Assembly (NCBI GenBank): GCA_001782165.1
Contig: MFNV01000009.1
Location: 1 to 56,122, forward strand
DNA length: 56,122 nt
DNA from: Candidatus Levybacteria bacterium RIFCSPHIGHO2_01_FULL_41_15
GTDB lineage: Bacteria; Patescibacteriota; Microgenomatia; Levybacterales; UBA12049
Direction of reading: 5' to 3'
Made by a program: the position numbers and the translations under genes. Of this stretch, positions 46,339 through 53,886 are shown piece after piece (within the stretch, counting starts at the first letter, position 1; every line of letters starts with the position of its first letter). Below the pieces are notes generated by a model. It worked only from the letters and a program-made list of their open reading frames with translations, was not told the origin of the DNA and searched no databases.

Positions 46339-48729
46339 TTAAGAATTAGAAATTGCAACTGTTAATTGGGGATTGTTAACTGTTAATTGCAATTTATCTC
46401 CTCTTCTTATTTCATCCTTTAAGATTTTTTGGGCGATAAGATCTTCAATATTATCCTCTATGTATCTTCTTATCGGTCTTGCTCCATACTGCCGGTCAAA
46501 TCCTTCTTTAATTACCTTTTCAATTACTAAGTTATCAAAAGAAGCCGAAATATCCTGTTCTTTAAGCTTATTTGAAAGTTCCGAAAGAAGAATTTCCGTA
46601 ACCTTTCTTACCTCATCCTCCGAAAGAGGCTTAAACACAATTATCCCATCGAACCTATTTAAAAGTTCAGGTTTGAAGGTTCCCTTTTTTTGAAGAAGTT
46701 CCAAAAGATTCTTTTGAAATTTATTATCAACTGGTGTCCCTTTTTCTACTTCCTCGCGGATAAATTCAGATCCTGCATTTGAGGTTGCAATTACTATCGA
46801 ATCGATAAATGAAACTGTTTTTCCCTTGTTGTCTGTAAGTCTTCCGTCTTCTAAGACCTGGAGGAAAAGATTCAAGATATTAGGATCTGCCTTCTCAAAC
46901 TCATCAAGAAGTACCAGAGAAAAAGGGTTATCTTTTATCTTATCCGTAAGCTCCCCAGGCGTTTCAGTCTCACCAGGAAGAGATCCCAAAAGCCTTTTTA
47001 AGGATCCCTGATTTGAGTATTCGCTCATATCAAGCCTTATCATTTTGTTTTCTCCCCCAAAGTAAAGCCGGGCCAAGACCTTTGCTGTTTCGGTTTTACC
47101 CACTCCCGTTGGACCCAGGAATAAAAATGAGATGGGTCTTTCTTCCGTCGTCAAACCTGCCCTAAGTCTTCTCATGGCTTCTGAAATTTGTGATACTGCC
47201 TCTTTTTGATCAATTACTCTTTGGTGTATTTTATCCTCAAGGTTTAAAAGAAGCTGTTTTTCTTTCCCACTGGGTTTGCCCACTGCTATGTTTGTTTTCT
47301 CTTCAACTTTAGCAATAACATCTTTCTCCTCAACAACTTTTCTGCCCGATAAAACTACAGCGGCCGTGGTATCAGATAAAAGCACGGCAGCTGAACCGGG
47401 AAGAACTTTATCCGGCAGGTATTTTTTGGCAAATTTCAAAGACGCTACTATAGATTTATAAGAAAGAGACGTTTTACTTTTCTCTTCAATCTCATCTGAT
47501 TTTCTAAAAAGCATATTTAAAGCTGTATTGGAATCAGGCTCATCCACCCTTATGATCTCGAAGTTTTCGGCAAAAGTTTTTCTTGTTTCAACAAATTTTT
47601 TATAAGCTTGAGGACTAATAGTACAGATAATCCTTATTGCACCTTTCTCAATATAAGGGGTGAGGACTCCTGAAAGATCAAGCTGAAACGAAGAAGAACC
47701 AAGAATATTTTCAACTGAAGGAATAAAAATAATAATATTTCCTGAATGAGAAACCTCTGCGATTAAAGAGTCTATCCTCGCCTCCAAAGCACCTATATTC
47801 TCCGTCCCGGCAAGAAGAGCATCAACGAGAAGCTGGTAAAATTTCTGATGGTAAAGATTACCCTTTAGGTCACCGATTAAGCTGTAAAAGGAGAGTGCGC
47901 TTGCAATTTCTCTTCTTCCTGATCCTTCTTCTCCTACAAGAAGGGCACTTTTTCCTTTATACATTGCCTCCAAAAGCTGTCGGAACTCTTCCTCCCTTCC
48001 TAAGATTGTTGGTTTTTTTCTAAGGATTTCCCCTGTTAAATCCAGCATGTATTTCCTAGCTTCTATAGTCCAGCCTGTGACCCAATCTTCTGCAATCCCT
48101 AAACCCGGGAATTCTATTCTGAAAGGCTTAGGGTTTTCCTCTTTAGAAAATCTTGCCCTAGTCCATAATAAAATTTGCATAAACTCTTCTTTCTTAAGCC
48201 CTTTATTAAACAAAAGTTTTGTCGCACTTTCGGAAAGAAGCAGATACGATGCAAAAAGATCGGCTGTTGTTATGAATTTTCCGTTAAGTTTTTTGACCGT
48301 TTCAAAAGCAGTTTTGACGATTTGATCTTTGGAAATCTTTATATCTATTATCTCTTCAGGTTTTAATATGTCTGATTTTTCCATAATGAAATCCACAGCC
48401 TCCATCTTCACCATTTTTTTAATCAGCGTTTCTGAATCTTTACTTGTTTGAAAAAGGGCAAGGGCAGGAAGAGTAAATGAATCAAAAATATTTTTGCCCT
48501 GCCTGCCGGCAGGCAGGCCGTCATTTTTTGAAACCTCAAGTTTAGGTGAAATTTTTGAAATCTTGAACCTTAGGAAAACTTCAAAAATCAAAAGAAGTGA
48601 TAAAAAAAATACAAACAGACTGCTCTCCTCTGAGATAATCAGGAAAAATAAAAGAAGGAACACAAAAAGTCTTAAGACTTTCGCTATGGGAAAGTTAAGA
48701 AAAGAAAAAATTCTTGCGTAATCTTTCAT
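46339..48729 (-). CDS. Membrane-anchored ClpC/ClpA-type AAA+ protein with an inactive first ATPase domain
   Basis: The 796-residue protein starts with two membrane helices (about 18-33 and 36-54), absent from normal ClpC. A Clp_N-like helical region follows (about 85-195). D1 has a Walker A-position sequence GEEGSGRR (266-273), where the required Lys-Thr is Arg-Arg, and its Walker B reads IIIFIPSVE with Pro and Ser in place of Asp-Glu (337-338), so D1 cannot hydrolyse ATP. D2 is intact: GPTGVGKT (539-546), LVLLDE (605-610) and the Arg-finger region PELLNRFD. No ClpP-binding IGF/LGF loop is seen. A 20-base palindrome (48498) is translated in the linker. Its start overlaps the 48726 gene by four bases. 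Confidence 0.85.
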   Translation of the reverse strand: MKDYARIFSFLNFPIAKVLRLFVFLLLFFLIISEESSLFVFFLSLLLIFEVFLRFKISKISPKLEVSKNDGLPAGRQGKNIFDSFTLPALALFQTSKDSETLIKKMVKMEAVDFIMEKSDILKPEEIIDIKISKDQIVKTAFETVKKLNGKFITTADLFASYLLLSESATKLLFNKGLKKEEFMQILLWTRARFSKEENPKPFRIEFPGLGIAEDWVTGWTIEARKYMLDLTGEILRKKPTILGREEEFRQLLEAMYKGKSALLVGEEGSGRREIASALSFYSLIGDLKGNLYHQKFYQLLVDALLAGTENIGALEARIDSLIAEVSHSGNIIIFIPSVENILGSSSFQLDLSGVLTPYIEKGAIRIICTISPQAYKKFVETRKTFAENFEIIRVDEPDSNTALNMLFRKSDEIEEKSKTSLSYKSIVASLKFAKKYLPDKVLPGSAAVLLSDTTAAVVLSGRKVVEEKDVIAKVEEKTNIAVGKPSGKEKQLLLNLEDKIHQRVIDQKEAVSQISEAMRRLRAGLTTEERPISFLFLGPTGVGKTETAKVLARLYFGGENKMIRLDMSEYSNQGSLKRLLGSLPGETETPGELTDKIKDNPFSLVLLDEFEKADPNILNLFLQVLEDGRLTDNKGKTVSFIDSIVIATSNAGSEFIREEVEKGTPVDNKFQKNLLELLQKKGTFKPELLNRFDGIIVFKPLSEDEVRKVTEILLSELSNKLKEQDISASFDNLVIEKVIKEGFDRQYGARPIRRYIEDNIEDLIAQKILKDEIRRGDKLQLTVNNPQLTVAISNS
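48498..48517. repeat. Perfect 20-base palindrome inside a coding region
   Basis: CCTGCCTGCCGGCAGGCAGG is perfectly self-complementary and is read in frame as LPAGRQG between the membrane part and the Clp_N-like part of the ClpC-like protein. It is strikingly GC-rich against its surroundings and looks like a short mobile repeat. Confidence 0.8.
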
Positions 48730-49096: not shown

Positions 49097-50806
49097 TTAA
49101 TTACTTGGGGTACAAATTAATTGGCATTGCTGAATAACTTTTTGTGCAGGCGGACAATTTGGATCGACGACACAATTATATGTTTTAATTGGCGTTGGGG
49201 TGGGCGTTGGGCTTGATCCTCCCGAACCTCCGCCTGTTGGCGTAGGCGTTGATTGAGCAGGAGTAGTTGGAGTTGGTGTTACACCAGGTGGTAAAGTAGG
49301 TGTAGGTGTTGGCACTCCAGGTGGTAGAGTAGGGGTTGGGGCACCCGGCGGCGCACCACTTGAGCAAGCTTGTAACGCTTTAAAGACATTTAGTCTTGGA
49401 CCAATCGGTTTATCTGTCGAGATAGGGTCTGCGCTTGCAACTAAACAATCACTGACTTGTTGTGGAGTAAGGTTTGGATAAAGAAATAAAACAAGAGCCG
49501 CTGCACCTGCAACATGAGGCGAAGCCATACTTGTCCCTTGATAATTATAACTGTATCCTCCTCCAGGGACGGTCGAAATGATACAACTTGATACGGTACA
49601 CACCCCACCTGATATTTTTTTATCTCCACCGGGTGCCGCTAACTCAACGACAGAGCCATGATTTGAATAATAAGCCCTTTGGTCATTTGGTCCTGTTGCT
49701 GCCACGGTAACCACTCCACTGCAAGAGGCTGGTGAAAAGCCAGAAGCATCTGCATTACTATTCCCTGCCGCAACTACCACAACTACCCCTTTACTCAATG
49801 CATAATTAATTGCATCTTGATATAAAAAATCGCAGGATCTTGCTCCTCCAAGGCTCATGTTTATGACACGCGCTCCGTTGTCTACCGCGTACCTTATTCC
49901 TTGCACTATCCCACTACTTGGTCCACTCCCACCACTACCCAAAACCTTTACAGCCATAAGTTTTAAATCCCAATTAATTCCACTAACACCTATCTTGTTA
50001 TTAGCTAATGCTCCGATTGTTCCCGCAACATGAGTACCATGACCTTTATCATCTCTTGGATCATCTGAGCCACTAATAAAATTTTTGCCTTTTATTATAT
50101 CGTCTGGTAAATCTTGATGGGTATAGTCAATTCCTGTATCTATCACTGCTGCAGTTACGCTTTTACTTCCCTTTGCTGCATCCCATGCATCACTCATTTG
50201 AATTTTTTGAAGCCCCCACATTTGAGGATAATATAGATCATCTGGAGTAGTTGCGAATATTTCATCAATAAAGTTTGGTTGAGTACCCTCTATAAAGCCA
50301 TACTTCAAATACAGATTTTGGACAATTATAGCATCACTGCCTGATTTAAGTTTTAGTAGATAGTGTCTTCTTAGCATTGGGTCTTTTGAGTCTTTGAATA
50401 ATTTTTCTTTATATGTAACACCTGCCTGTTTGTCTAATTCTTGAAAGAGGGATAAATATTCCTGCGGTGTCATCTGTTTTTGAATATTATCCCGCCAAAA
50501 AATCTTAATCTTTCCACCAATACTTCTTTGTTTTTTTTCTCTTTCTCCTATAGCTTGTTCTAGTTCCCCAGGAGAAAAACCAGCTTTGTATTTTACAATT
50601 ACTTGGCCTGATACATAACTTGCCGGCTCGTAATATTTTGCTGTCCTTTCAGTGACAGCAAGCTTCTGTGGCTTTTTAAATATTGTTACAACTAGTAAAT
50701 AAGCAAAAAAAATTACCAATATCCCTAAAATGATATAAGCTATTTTTTTGGACTGGGAAAAACTTTTAAAACGGTTGAACAATTGCGTTAGTTTCGACAT
50801 TGTCAA
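49097..50806 (-). CDS. Membrane-anchored subtilisin-like serine protease (S8)
   Basis: The 569-residue protein has an N-terminal membrane helix (about 22-43), a propeptide-like domain (about 64-160: YVSGQVIVKYKAGFSP ... KLKSGSDAII), and a subtilase domain. Its catalytic triad is Asp223 (VIDTGID), His256 (HGTHVAG) and Ser426 (GTSMASP), with Asn349 (AAGNS) in the oxyanion hole. The C-terminal 90 residues are a Pro/Thr-rich stalk plus a short Cys-rich end. It is thus an extracellular protease tethered to the membrane. The upstream gene overlaps it by 41 bases and encodes a second copy of the propeptide-like domain. No LPxTG-type sorting signal is seen. Confidence 0.93.
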   Translation of the reverse strand: MTMSKLTQLFNRFKSFSQSKKIAYIILGILVIFFAYLLVVTIFKKPQKLAVTERTAKYYEPASYVSGQVIVKYKAGFSPGELEQAIGEREKKQRSIGGKIKIFWRDNIQKQMTPQEYLSLFQELDKQAGVTYKEKLFKDSKDPMLRRHYLLKLKSGSDAIIVQNLYLKYGFIEGTQPNFIDEIFATTPDDLYYPQMWGLQKIQMSDAWDAAKGSKSVTAAVIDTGIDYTHQDLPDDIIKGKNFISGSDDPRDDKGHGTHVAGTIGALANNKIGVSGINWDLKLMAVKVLGSGGSGPSSGIVQGIRYAVDNGARVINMSLGGARSCDFLYQDAINYALSKGVVVVVAAGNSNADASGFSPASCSGVVTVAATGPNDQRAYYSNHGSVVELAAPGGDKKISGGVCTVSSCIISTVPGGGYSYNYQGTSMASPHVAGAAALVLFLYPNLTPQQVSDCLVASADPISTDKPIGPRLNVFKALQACSSGAPPGAPTPTLPPGVPTPTPTLPPGVTPTPTTPAQSTPTPTGGGSGGSSPTPTPTPIKTYNCVVDPNCPPAQKVIQQCQLICTPSN

Positions 50807-51314
50807 CTTCAGAAAGATTTTTTAAGATTGTGATTGCTTGTAATAAGTCACTCCCTGTTTTCAATTTTATTAAATAATAAGTCCTTAAATTGTTGTCTGT
50901 TGTGTCTTTATAAAGTTTTTCCTTAGACAGGACTCCAGCCTCTTTATCTGCTAATTCAATTTCTCTCAATTTAGTCTGGTCCTGTAATTCATCAGGTGAT
51001 TGACCAGGTTTGTATTTTATGATGAGTTGATCAGAAACATATGTGTCTTCGGGGGGGAGAGTGATTGTCGGAATAGATTTTGGTGATGGAGCTTGGATAG
51101 AAGGATTGGCCGCAGGGACAGGAGAAAATTTGGGAGTTTGTTTTATCTTTTTTGATTGTCTAAAAAATATAAAAGGAACGATGATAAAAAGAACTAAAAC
51201 TATTACTGCAAGGCCTGCTATAATTTTTTTTGTATTTAAAAAAACAACTATTCTATCAGATAGATTGGGTTTTGGGACTGGAAAGCCTTGCTGAATTTTA
51301 TTTTCTTCATCCAT
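50766..51314 (-). CDS. Stand-alone, membrane-anchored subtilase propeptide-like protein
   Basis: The 182-residue protein has a short cytoplasmic tail, one membrane helix (about 30-51), a Pro-rich linker and a C-terminal domain (about 92-182) visibly related to the propeptide region of the adjacent subtilase. Both show YVS-Q-(V/I)I-KYK-G-SP-EL, KEKL(F/Y)KD and YL(L/I)KLK(S/T)GSD. There is no protease domain. Family knowledge: S8 propeptides fold and inhibit their enzyme, and free I9-type inhibitors exist. This may therefore be a membrane-bound inhibitor or folding assistant of the subtilase, or a relic of duplication. It overlaps the subtilase gene by 41 bases and follows clpC by seven. Confidence 0.75.
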   Translation of the reverse strand: MDEENKIQQGFPVPKPNLSDRIVVFLNTKKIIAGLAVIVLVLFIIVPFIFFRQSKKIKQTPKFSPVPAANPSIQAPSPKSIPTITLPPEDTYVSDQLIIKYKPGQSPDELQDQTKLREIELADKEAGVLSKEKLYKDTTDNNLRTYYLIKLKTGSDLLQAITILKNLSEVDNVETNAIVQPF

Positions 51315-51321
51315 AAATCAC

Positions 51322-53886
51322 TTAAGCCTTTGGGGACATTTGTGTACCATCGCTTCCCATTGTGAGCGGCGGGTTTGGAATTGAGTTTTGAGTTGGTGTT
51401 CCATTTATTAGCGGCTGGCTAGGAATTTGTTCTCCATCTGAATTTTGAGAACTCTGGACTTGGGGAGGAGCTTTTGAAAAAGTGAATTCTTCTTTTTGAC
51501 TATCATAATTTATCAAAATCTTGTCTCCTGCAACAAAAGTTTTGTTGATAATACGAATTGCAATTGGATTTTCGATTGCGCTTTGAATAAGGCGTCTTAA
51601 AGGTCTTGCTCCATAAACAGGATCATATCCTTCTTTTGCCAGTCTGTCCAATGCTTCTTTTGTTATATCCAGATCAAATCCTTGCTGATTTAAAAGTTTC
51701 TTTGTCGCGTTTATTCCTAACTTTGCGACTTCGGTCATATTCTTCTGAGACAGTGGCTCAAATATTACAACCTCGTCAAAACGGTTTAGGAGCTCGGGTT
51801 TGAAGAATTTTCGAAGCTCGGCGAACAAGATTTTTGAAAGTTCTTCAAATCTTTTAGCTTCTTCCTGCGGGGAAATTTCCTTACCTTGCCCCGCCGAGGC
51901 GGGGTCTTCTTTTTTATTTTGCTCAAGCTGCTGCTGAATCAAAACGCTTCCGATATTTGAAGTTGCAATTATAATAGTATTCTTAAAAGAAATTGTATTT
52001 CCCTTATTATCTGTAAGACGTCCGTCCTCAAGAAGCTGAAGTAGAATATTGAAAACATCAGGGTGGGCCTTTTCTATTTCATCCAAGAGAACAATTGAGT
52101 AAGGTTTTGTTCTAACTGCCTCCGTAAGCTGACCGCCCTCCTCATATCCTACATATCCAGGAGGAGCGCCGATAAGCTTTGCTACTTCATGTTTTTCCAT
52201 GTATTCACTCATGTCAAGTCTAGCCATTGCCTCTTCTTTTCCAAAAAGAAGCTCGGCCAGTGTTTTTGCAAGTTCTGTTTTTCCAACACCTGTTGGACCT
52301 AAGAAAATAAAAGATGCGATGGGCCTGTTTGCGCTGGATAGTCCGATTCTTCCTCGTCTTACAGCTTCTGCAACTGCGGCAACAGCATTTTCTTGATTTA
52401 TTAATTTCTTGTGAATAGTCTCTTCAAGGTGAAGCAATTTTTCACTTTCGTTTTCTGTAAGTTTTGTTATAGGAATTCCCGTCCAACCTGAAACAACTTT
52501 TTCTATATCGCTTTTGGAAACTGAGTTATCAGATCTTTTTCCTGCATTTAATTCAAGCCTTGCCTCTGCTGCTGCCTCATCCAAAAGATCTACTGCCTTA
52601 TCGGGCAAAAATCTTTCTCCTATATACCGCTTTGATAATCGGACAGATTCTTCAAGAGTTACATCGGGCAAAACTATTTTGTGAAAGTTCTCATACTTTG
52701 GTCTTAAAACCTTAAGCATCTCAACTGCGGTTTTTTCATCCGGCTCCGCAATCAGAACCGGCTGAAATCTTCTCTCAAATGCTTTATCCTTTTCAAAATA
52801 TTTTCTGTATTCAGTTGTAGTAGTCGTTCCAATTATCTGAAGCTGTCCACGTGCTAAAAATGGTTTTATTATATTTGAGGCATCCAAAGCTCCCTCTGTA
52901 TCTCCTGCTCCAATAAGCGTGTGGATTTCGTCTATAAAAAGAACTACTGTTCCGCTTGCCGCTTGTGTTTCTTTAATAACATTTCGCAGTCTTTCTTCAA
53001 ATTCTCCTCGGTGAGAGGCGCCAGCGACTAAAGATGACAAATCGAGCTGAATTATTCTTTTTGAAAGCAAATCCTTTGGAGCAGATCCTTCAACTATTTT
53101 CTGTGCAAGTCCTTCTACAACTGCCGTTTTCCCAACCCCTGCTTCTCCTATGATAACCGGGTTATTCTTGGTTCGCCTAAGTAAAATGTGAATTACTCTT
53201 TCTATTTCTGTATCTCGTCCTGCAACCGGGTCAAGTTCTCCATTTTTTGCCTGATCTGTTAAATCTACTCCATAACTTTCAAGAGCCGATTTTCTTCCCT
53301 TTACATAAGTCGAAGATTTGGAAAGTGTTTTCTCTAAATCTTCTTTTTTAATTCCTTCATTTTGAAGAATATTTGATGAAGTTGCTTGGGAGAATAGCGC
53401 GAGCAAAAGATCCTCGGGTGTTATAAACTCAACTCCTCTGCCTTTTACCATTGCGTAAGCTTCATCAAGAATTTTTTTGGTTGTATCGCTTAAAGTCTGC
53501 TCTCCAATAAAATTTCCCATCGTCTGCCTACCCTGAATTTCTTTAACTATTTTTGTTGGATCCTGGGAAAATTGGGAAATTAATTTAAAAATTTCTCCGT
53601 CATATAAAAGACCGGTCATTAGCTGATCTGGCTCTATTAAAGCTTGTTTAATTCTTTTTGCCTCCTGTTGTGCAAGATTTAAGACTTGAGTAGCTCTCGT
53701 ATCTAAATGGGATAAAACCGAAAGTCCCTGTCTGATACTTGGCTCCATAGGAGAAGGTGCGATGTTTACTGAAGGCTGGGAAACAACTGGATTCTGAGGG
53801 GTAAATGCTTGTGACGGCGGCTCTGGACCTTGATGCATTGGATTATCAGCTATATATTTTCTTGAACCGAATAAATTTCCGAACAT
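51322..53886 (-). CDS. clpC: ClpC/ClpA-type AAA+ unfoldase
   Basis: The 854-residue protein has a Pro/Gln-rich extension (1-50), two Clp_N repeats (about 60-200), and two intact AAA modules. D1 has Walker A GEAGVGKT (247-254) and [16 protein letters not shown]2 has GPTGVGKT (about residue 533) and [29 protein letters not shown]. The middle domain that ClpB or ClpC carries is nearly absent, and no IGF/LGF ClpP loop is seen; at that place is a low-complexity [16 protein letters not shown] stretch from an inserted palindrome. Its partner protease is therefore uncertain. The C-terminus is a Ser/Gln/Pro-rich tail. Confidence 0.93.
51889..51904. repeat. In-frame CCCCGCC/GGCGGGG palindrome in clpC
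   Basis: CCCCGCC-GA-GGCGGGG has 7-base perfect arms and is translated as DPASAGQ in the D2 loop where ClpP-binding sequences usually lie. It is another GC-rich dispersed element. Confidence 0.65.

Follow-up and report, generated by a model that had tools for sequence, protein, structure and literature searches.

A stand-alone, membrane-anchored propeptide-type protein encoded directly upstream of a subtilase in Levybacteria: a candidate tethered inhibitor

The fervidolysin-type prodomain (PF22148) normally forms part of a subtilase chain, as its cis propeptide. In free form, subtilase propeptides are nanomolar inhibitors in trans, as described for pernisine (more than 50% inhibition at 15 nM; PMC10580911). 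Prokaryotes are said to have relatively few endogenous peptidase inhibitors, and stand-alone propeptide mimics that inhibit subtilases have been described in eukaryotes (PMC6993865). In Plasmodium, a propeptide-like protein in its own right, SUB1-ProM, is encoded next to subtilase genes; it carries an E-x-N capping motif followed by a C-terminal tail, the subtilase retains a propeptide of its own, and no sequence similarity has been reported outside this genus (PMC6993865). The MEROPS family I9 inhibitors POIA1, yeast IB2 and Arabidopsis SPI-1, and also TgMIC5, are likewise independent propeptide folds that act on subtilases (PMC6993865). Among bacteria, an Aeromonas sobria operon encodes the subtilase ASP and a separate protein, ORF2, which binds the active site with its C-terminus and serves as external chaperone and temporary inhibitor (PMC5638518), while in Myxococcus xanthus PopD forms a complex with the subtilase PopC and, as long as the cells are not starving, prevents its secretion (PMC6434023). 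Given the eukaryotic I9-type inhibitors, SUB1-ProM and ORF2, the statement in a preliminary description of the present locus that no named example of such a pair is known was too strong. Nevertheless, the open-licence papers searched contained no bacterial case of a membrane-tethered propeptide homologue alongside a subtilase that has its own propeptide, no bacterial stand-alone propeptide, and no paper treating Levybacteria and subtilisin together.

We describe here such a pair from Candidatus Levybacteria bacterium RIFCSPHIGHO2_01_FULL_41_15 (genome of 728 kb, 98.6% complete). It lies in a 56,122-nt stretch of DNA, analysed as a whole and called the window below, with the following genes:

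51322..53886, minus strand: ClpB-like AAA+ ATPase gene, directly upstream, a conserved neighbour
50766..51314, minus strand: stand-alone membrane-anchored propeptide protein, 182 aa (open reading frame, PF22148, AlphaFold2)
49097..50800, minus strand: subtilase, 567 aa from the ATG at 50800 (PF00082, E 1.2e-58)
49097..50806, minus strand: the same frame read from an alternative TTG start at 50806, 569 aa
50766..50800, minus strand: overlap of 35 nt between the 3' end of the stand-alone frame and the 5' end of the subtilase frame

Only 7 nt separate the ClpB-like gene from the stand-alone frame. The position of the subtilase ATG is conserved in relatives, and the overlap counted from it is 35 nt in G005 and G019 as well and 20 nt in G004. 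The order ClpB, stand-alone protein, subtilase, together with the overlap, is kept across three genera. That one gene was split by an assembly frameshift can be ruled out, since independent genomes show the same arrangement. Two ClpB-like AAA+ ATPases (46339-48729 and 51322-53886) flank the pair, and relatives show synteny over the ClpB-flanked block, which also includes NusA, IF-2 and a TrbL/VirB6-like gene.

The stand-alone protein consists of a transmembrane helix, a Pro/Ser/Thr-rich linker and a C-terminal propeptide-type domain:

51168..51224, minus strand: transmembrane helix, aa 31-49 (Kyte-Doolittle 3.28)
50787..51068, minus strand: Fervidolysin_NPro-like propeptide domain, aa 83-176 (Pfam)
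50769..50795, minus strand: C-terminal tail E174-T-N176-AIVQPF182, with the chain end at the predicted P1 position (alignments)

The preliminary description holds at this level. Both neighbouring frames are present, and the propeptide-like domain that they were said to share is recovered by BLASTP, in which the stand-alone protein matches the propeptide of the subtilase (37% over 107 columns, E 7e-16), and by PF22148, which scores the 182-aa protein at 31.1 bits (Pfam cut-off 21). The motif words noted earlier run in the same order (YVSDQ/YVSGQ, KYKPGQSP/KYKAGFSP, KEKLYKD/KEKLFKD, KLKTGSD/KLKSGSD), and a Pfam scan of this separate gene product gives no S8 match, in agreement with the claimed lack of a catalytic domain. 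The reported overlap is also real, but its length of 41 bases applies only to the TTG start.

An AlphaFold2 model of the stand-alone protein, built from an 11-row alignment of the window and related sequences, has a membrane helix at residues 18-56, a linker of low confidence and a domain in which pLDDT exceeds 90, and the domain probably folds independently. Its elements follow the order strand-helix-strand-strand-helix-strand (bab-bab), the topology of I9 propeptides. This ferredoxin-like arrangement is common, so it is supportive of, rather than decisive for, propeptide identity, and for the same reason the Foldseek scores against the PDB are only modest: ranks 2 and 3 are the subtilase proteins 8gko (A. 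fumigatus alkaline protease) and 8uwc (site-one protease), at E about 5e-3. With phmmer, the 182-aa protein gave no relevant match among PDB sequences; the domain profile did reach subtilisin prosegments, weakly. The same element order has been described for subtilisin propeptides, TgMIC5 and SUB1-ProM (PMC6993865). As for topology, positive charges lie on both sides of the helix, so charge does not decide it. However, the stand-alone proteins of G035, G585 and G534 have signal-peptide-like N-termini, which makes export likely, and from this and homology we infer that the domain faces the outside of the cell.

The C-terminal end of the stand-alone protein is suggestive of its mode of action. 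The tail comprises a helix-capping type motif (E-x-N) and six further residues, and the domain profile aligns this motif with E-x-D of the subtilisin E and BPN' prosegments. In the solved structure of the BPN' prosegment (1SPB_P) the chain ends six residues after that Asp, with a last residue that is known to occupy S1 in the subtilisin-propeptide complex. N176 to F182 matches this chain end, and the tail is thus predicted to reach S1. Among nine stand-alone/subtilase pairs, five have a stand-alone chain ending exactly at [N/D/E]+6: those of the window (NAIVQPF), G004 (NYVPELF), G005 (NNIQNTF) and G019 (NYINRAN), and that of a second pair in the genome of the window (G000:C7), which ends six residues after an equivalent Glu (EGIQSGQ). 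The other four end at +3 (G004:C27), +7 (G035), +8 (G534) and +9 (G585). An exact P1 end is therefore not universal, and the tails of SUB1-ProM vary likewise (PMC6993865). A stop at [N/D]+6 offers a simple rule for finding further cases.

The partner subtilase has its own anchor and its own propeptide:

50678..50734, minus strand: single transmembrane helix, aa 23-41 (Kyte-Doolittle 3.06)
50255..50629, minus strand: cis propeptide, about aa 58-182
49430..50164, minus strand: catalytic Peptidase_S8 domain

In addition to Peptidase_S8, Pfam gives a sub-threshold PF22148 match, and the triad D221/H254/S424 and oxyanion N347 are conserved in the alignment and against AK.1 protease. AlphaFold2 models the full chain poorly (mean pLDDT 63), with the propeptide elements in the same order as in the stand-alone domain. 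At the junction with the mature part the sequence reads N-FIDEIF-ATTPDD. In the solved structures of AK.1 protease and 9RK9 the chain starts at the residue preceding the Thr aligned to T185; if these chain starts are taken as mature starts, the cut falls at +6 in normally spaced relatives. The window subtilase carries an additional residue ahead of its mature start, and its own cleavage site could then be either +6 or +7. A Kyte-Doolittle scan found no later membrane helix in the chain. Because the only helix lies before the propeptide, processing should shed the catalytic part and leave a membrane-tethered propeptide behind; the tethered protease of the preliminary description is thus anchored as made, but its catalytic part should be released. 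The C-terminal end of the subtilase (49100-49250) consists of a stretch rich in Pro and Thr and a short segment with four Cys (YNCVVDPNCPPAQKVIQQCQLIC), conserved in ClpB-linked relatives.

The pair is not confined to the window. When the regions upstream of all 53 subtilase matches (PF00082; 32 of 82 genomes) in the order were read, seven pairs in five genomes were found: G000:C9 (the window), G000:C7, G004:C6/C8, G004:C27, G005, G019 and G035. One is probably split over two contigs: the end of G004:C6 falls within the first part of a subtilase gene, and the rest of such a gene lies at the end of C8. A class-wide search added G585 and G534, so that the search in other genomes proposed with the first description brings the total for the class to nine pairs, in seven genomes; G471, where the locus lies at the edge of a contig, is probably a further one. 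Nine of the 11 complete stand-alone copies lie directly 5' of a subtilase, overlapping it or within about 20 nt, and two (G436 and G583) have no adjoining subtilase. Conversely, 46 of the 53 subtilase matches in the order have no stand-alone partner, and a phylum-wide sample gave almost no further copies. The second pair in the genome of the window is divergent. Its stand-alone protein, encoded 12 nt from a subtilase with propeptide, scores below the PF22148 cut-off (17.6 bits), and a domain-only profile built without it gives 15.3 bits (E 0.0018, 1825 frames), the highest score among 2000 shuffles being 6.2 bits; we accept its homology with moderate confidence.

Several other arrangements were observed during this search. 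In G436:C39 (L087:5227-5637) a signal-anchored propeptide protein of 136 aa is encoded on its own next to an MltG-like gene, away from any subtilase. Anchored proteins of 168 and 193 aa precede subtilases in G523:C35 (L209:1-1285, 1-nt overlap) and G608:C3 (L208:606-1922, directly 5'); their C-terminal domain differs, that of G523 having no Pfam match, and they form a possible further class of partners. In G029:C1 (L090:6471-9275) the ClpB slot holds a protein with a related N-terminal anchor and an unrelated ectodomain without Pfam match, followed by an M4 metallopeptidase with FTP propeptide; it looks as though the anchor and its partner had been replaced jointly.

The stand-alone gene is not a recent copy of the propeptide of its own partner. 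This is ruled out by the insert pattern, an insert of about 30 residues being present in the subtilase propeptide and absent from the stand-alone copy, and by the identities, which are 45-48% to stand-alone proteins of another genus and 33-42%, depending on the alignment, to the partner propeptide. In the domain tree, which is weak beyond the clade tests given a short domain and several long branches, a starred branch groups the ClpB-linked subtilase propeptides (G005, G019 and the sister family f2) apart from the stand-alone copies. An AU test rejects a single clade comprising every stand-alone copy (p 3.5e-5), indicating that they arose more than once, and the four ClpB-linked copies may form one clade (compatible, p 0.20). 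In f2 the slot after ClpB holds one anchored subtilase, with a related anchor and the propeptide fused to the protease, and no stand-alone copy. The subtilase encoded at G078:C12:182965-186678 (L130) has two propeptide domains in tandem within a single chain. These cases point to a likely origin by duplication and loss of the catalytic part. Copies fused to their own protease, named at the outset as a finding that would speak against the pair, thus do exist, and the pairing stands nonetheless. The stand-alone frame is intact across three genera at 30-46% identity, and codon positions 1, 2 and 3 of the four ClpB-linked genes are 46-59%, 57-71% and 36-43% identical, with third positions saturated, as expected for a protein under selection.

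In short, the stand-alone protein is best read as a tethered product-like inhibitor or a docking site, a chaperone acting in trans being less likely. Our main reading, to which we give a probability of roughly 0.58, is that it is a membrane-tethered, product-like inhibitor of the co-encoded subtilase. Operon order and overlap suggest coupled synthesis, in which the stand-alone protein would be made just before the protease. Its domain would fold by itself outside the cell and pack on the catalytic domain as the cleaved propeptide of the enzyme does, with the free C-terminus (...AIVQPF) sitting in the S4-S1 pockets as an uncleavable product mimic. As autoprocessing of the subtilase would leave a membrane-bound propeptide and free the catalytic part, the stand-alone protein would copy the layout of that leftover, and active protease could be captured or held, inhibited, at the surface of the producer.

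The preliminary description had offered an inhibitor and a chaperone side by side, a reasonable proposal for a pair that proves real, conserved and recurrent, but the former is better supported. Propeptides fold subtilases in general, the stand-alone gene comes first and is probably translated first, and in bacteria ORF2 sets a precedent for a chaperone on a chain of its own with inhibitory activity as well (PMC5638518), all of which would suit a domain that templates folding of the protease in trans. However, this subtilase and all partners examined keep their own propeptide, making a second chaperone redundant, and f2 has an anchored subtilase without any extra copy; together with a chain end at or near P1 and a domain predicted to fold alone, this renders the chaperone role improbable. 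Slightly less probable still is a docking receptor that retains the shed protease at the surface, with inhibition incidental or absent. The anchor and linker are of the same type as those of the subtilase, the mature protease lacks any other membrane helix, and the G029 protein, with related anchor and different ectodomain before an M4 metallopeptidase, looks as if the slot were meant for an anchored partner of a protease; yet the conserved E-x-N motif and the +6 end point to binding at the active site, and the secreted-type pairs (G035, G585, G534) have no anchor with which to retain anything.

Two further readings we consider very unlikely, and to the same degree. The gene might be the functionless 5' copy of a tandem subtilase that lost its catalytic part, a degenerate duplicate, as the fused same-slot subtilases of f2 and some lone or broken pieces elsewhere (G313, G453) might suggest. 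Against this speak the intact frame, operon position and overlap in three genera with codon-position bias, the recurrence of independent pairs, and a C-terminus that in the ClpB-linked group is conserved and not ragged. Alternatively, the protein might inhibit a different protease (a host, prey or rival subtilase) and be co-encoded incidentally; lone copies without neighbouring subtilase (G436:C39, G583:C52) would fit, but not the position of most complete copies directly 5' of a subtilase.

Many Patescibacteria are thought to live on other cells, and for such organisms control of surface proteolysis would matter. Extending the tethered-inhibitor reading, we tentatively suggest, while regarding it as rather doubtful, a recurrent form of self-protection that arose more than once in these ultra-small bacteria: the tethered propeptide would recapture and silence released enzyme at the surface, free enzyme would work at a distance, and in one genome the slot would have been given a different ectodomain to go with an M4 metallopeptidase. 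The locus provides a directly testable pair.

How, then, does this locus compare with the systems described so far? SUB1-ProM shares the capping motif, the tail and the gene neighbourhood, but it is eukaryotic, secreted without a transmembrane anchor and encoded without operon or overlap, and its inhibition has been measured whereas that by the Levybacteria protein is predicted from sequence (PMC6993865). The I9 inhibitors and TgMIC5 are also eukaryotic and are said to have no significant sequence similarity to bona fide propeptides (PMC6993865); unlike those, the Levybacteria protein is recognisably homologous to the propeptide of its partner and is membrane-anchored. In Aeromonas, ASP is propeptide-deficient and orf2 lies downstream (PMC5638518), whereas the window subtilase has a propeptide in cis; we liken the two by description only, as we do PopC/PopD, in which a bacterial subtilase is held back by a separate partner (PMC6434023). 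The fervidolysin-type prodomains belong to the same domain family, but in the present locus such a prodomain also occurs as a separate anchored chain. Thus, while the previously described stand-alone mimics are eukaryotic (fungi, plants, parasites), the pair described here represents a bacterial, operon-encoded and membrane-tethered propeptide form.
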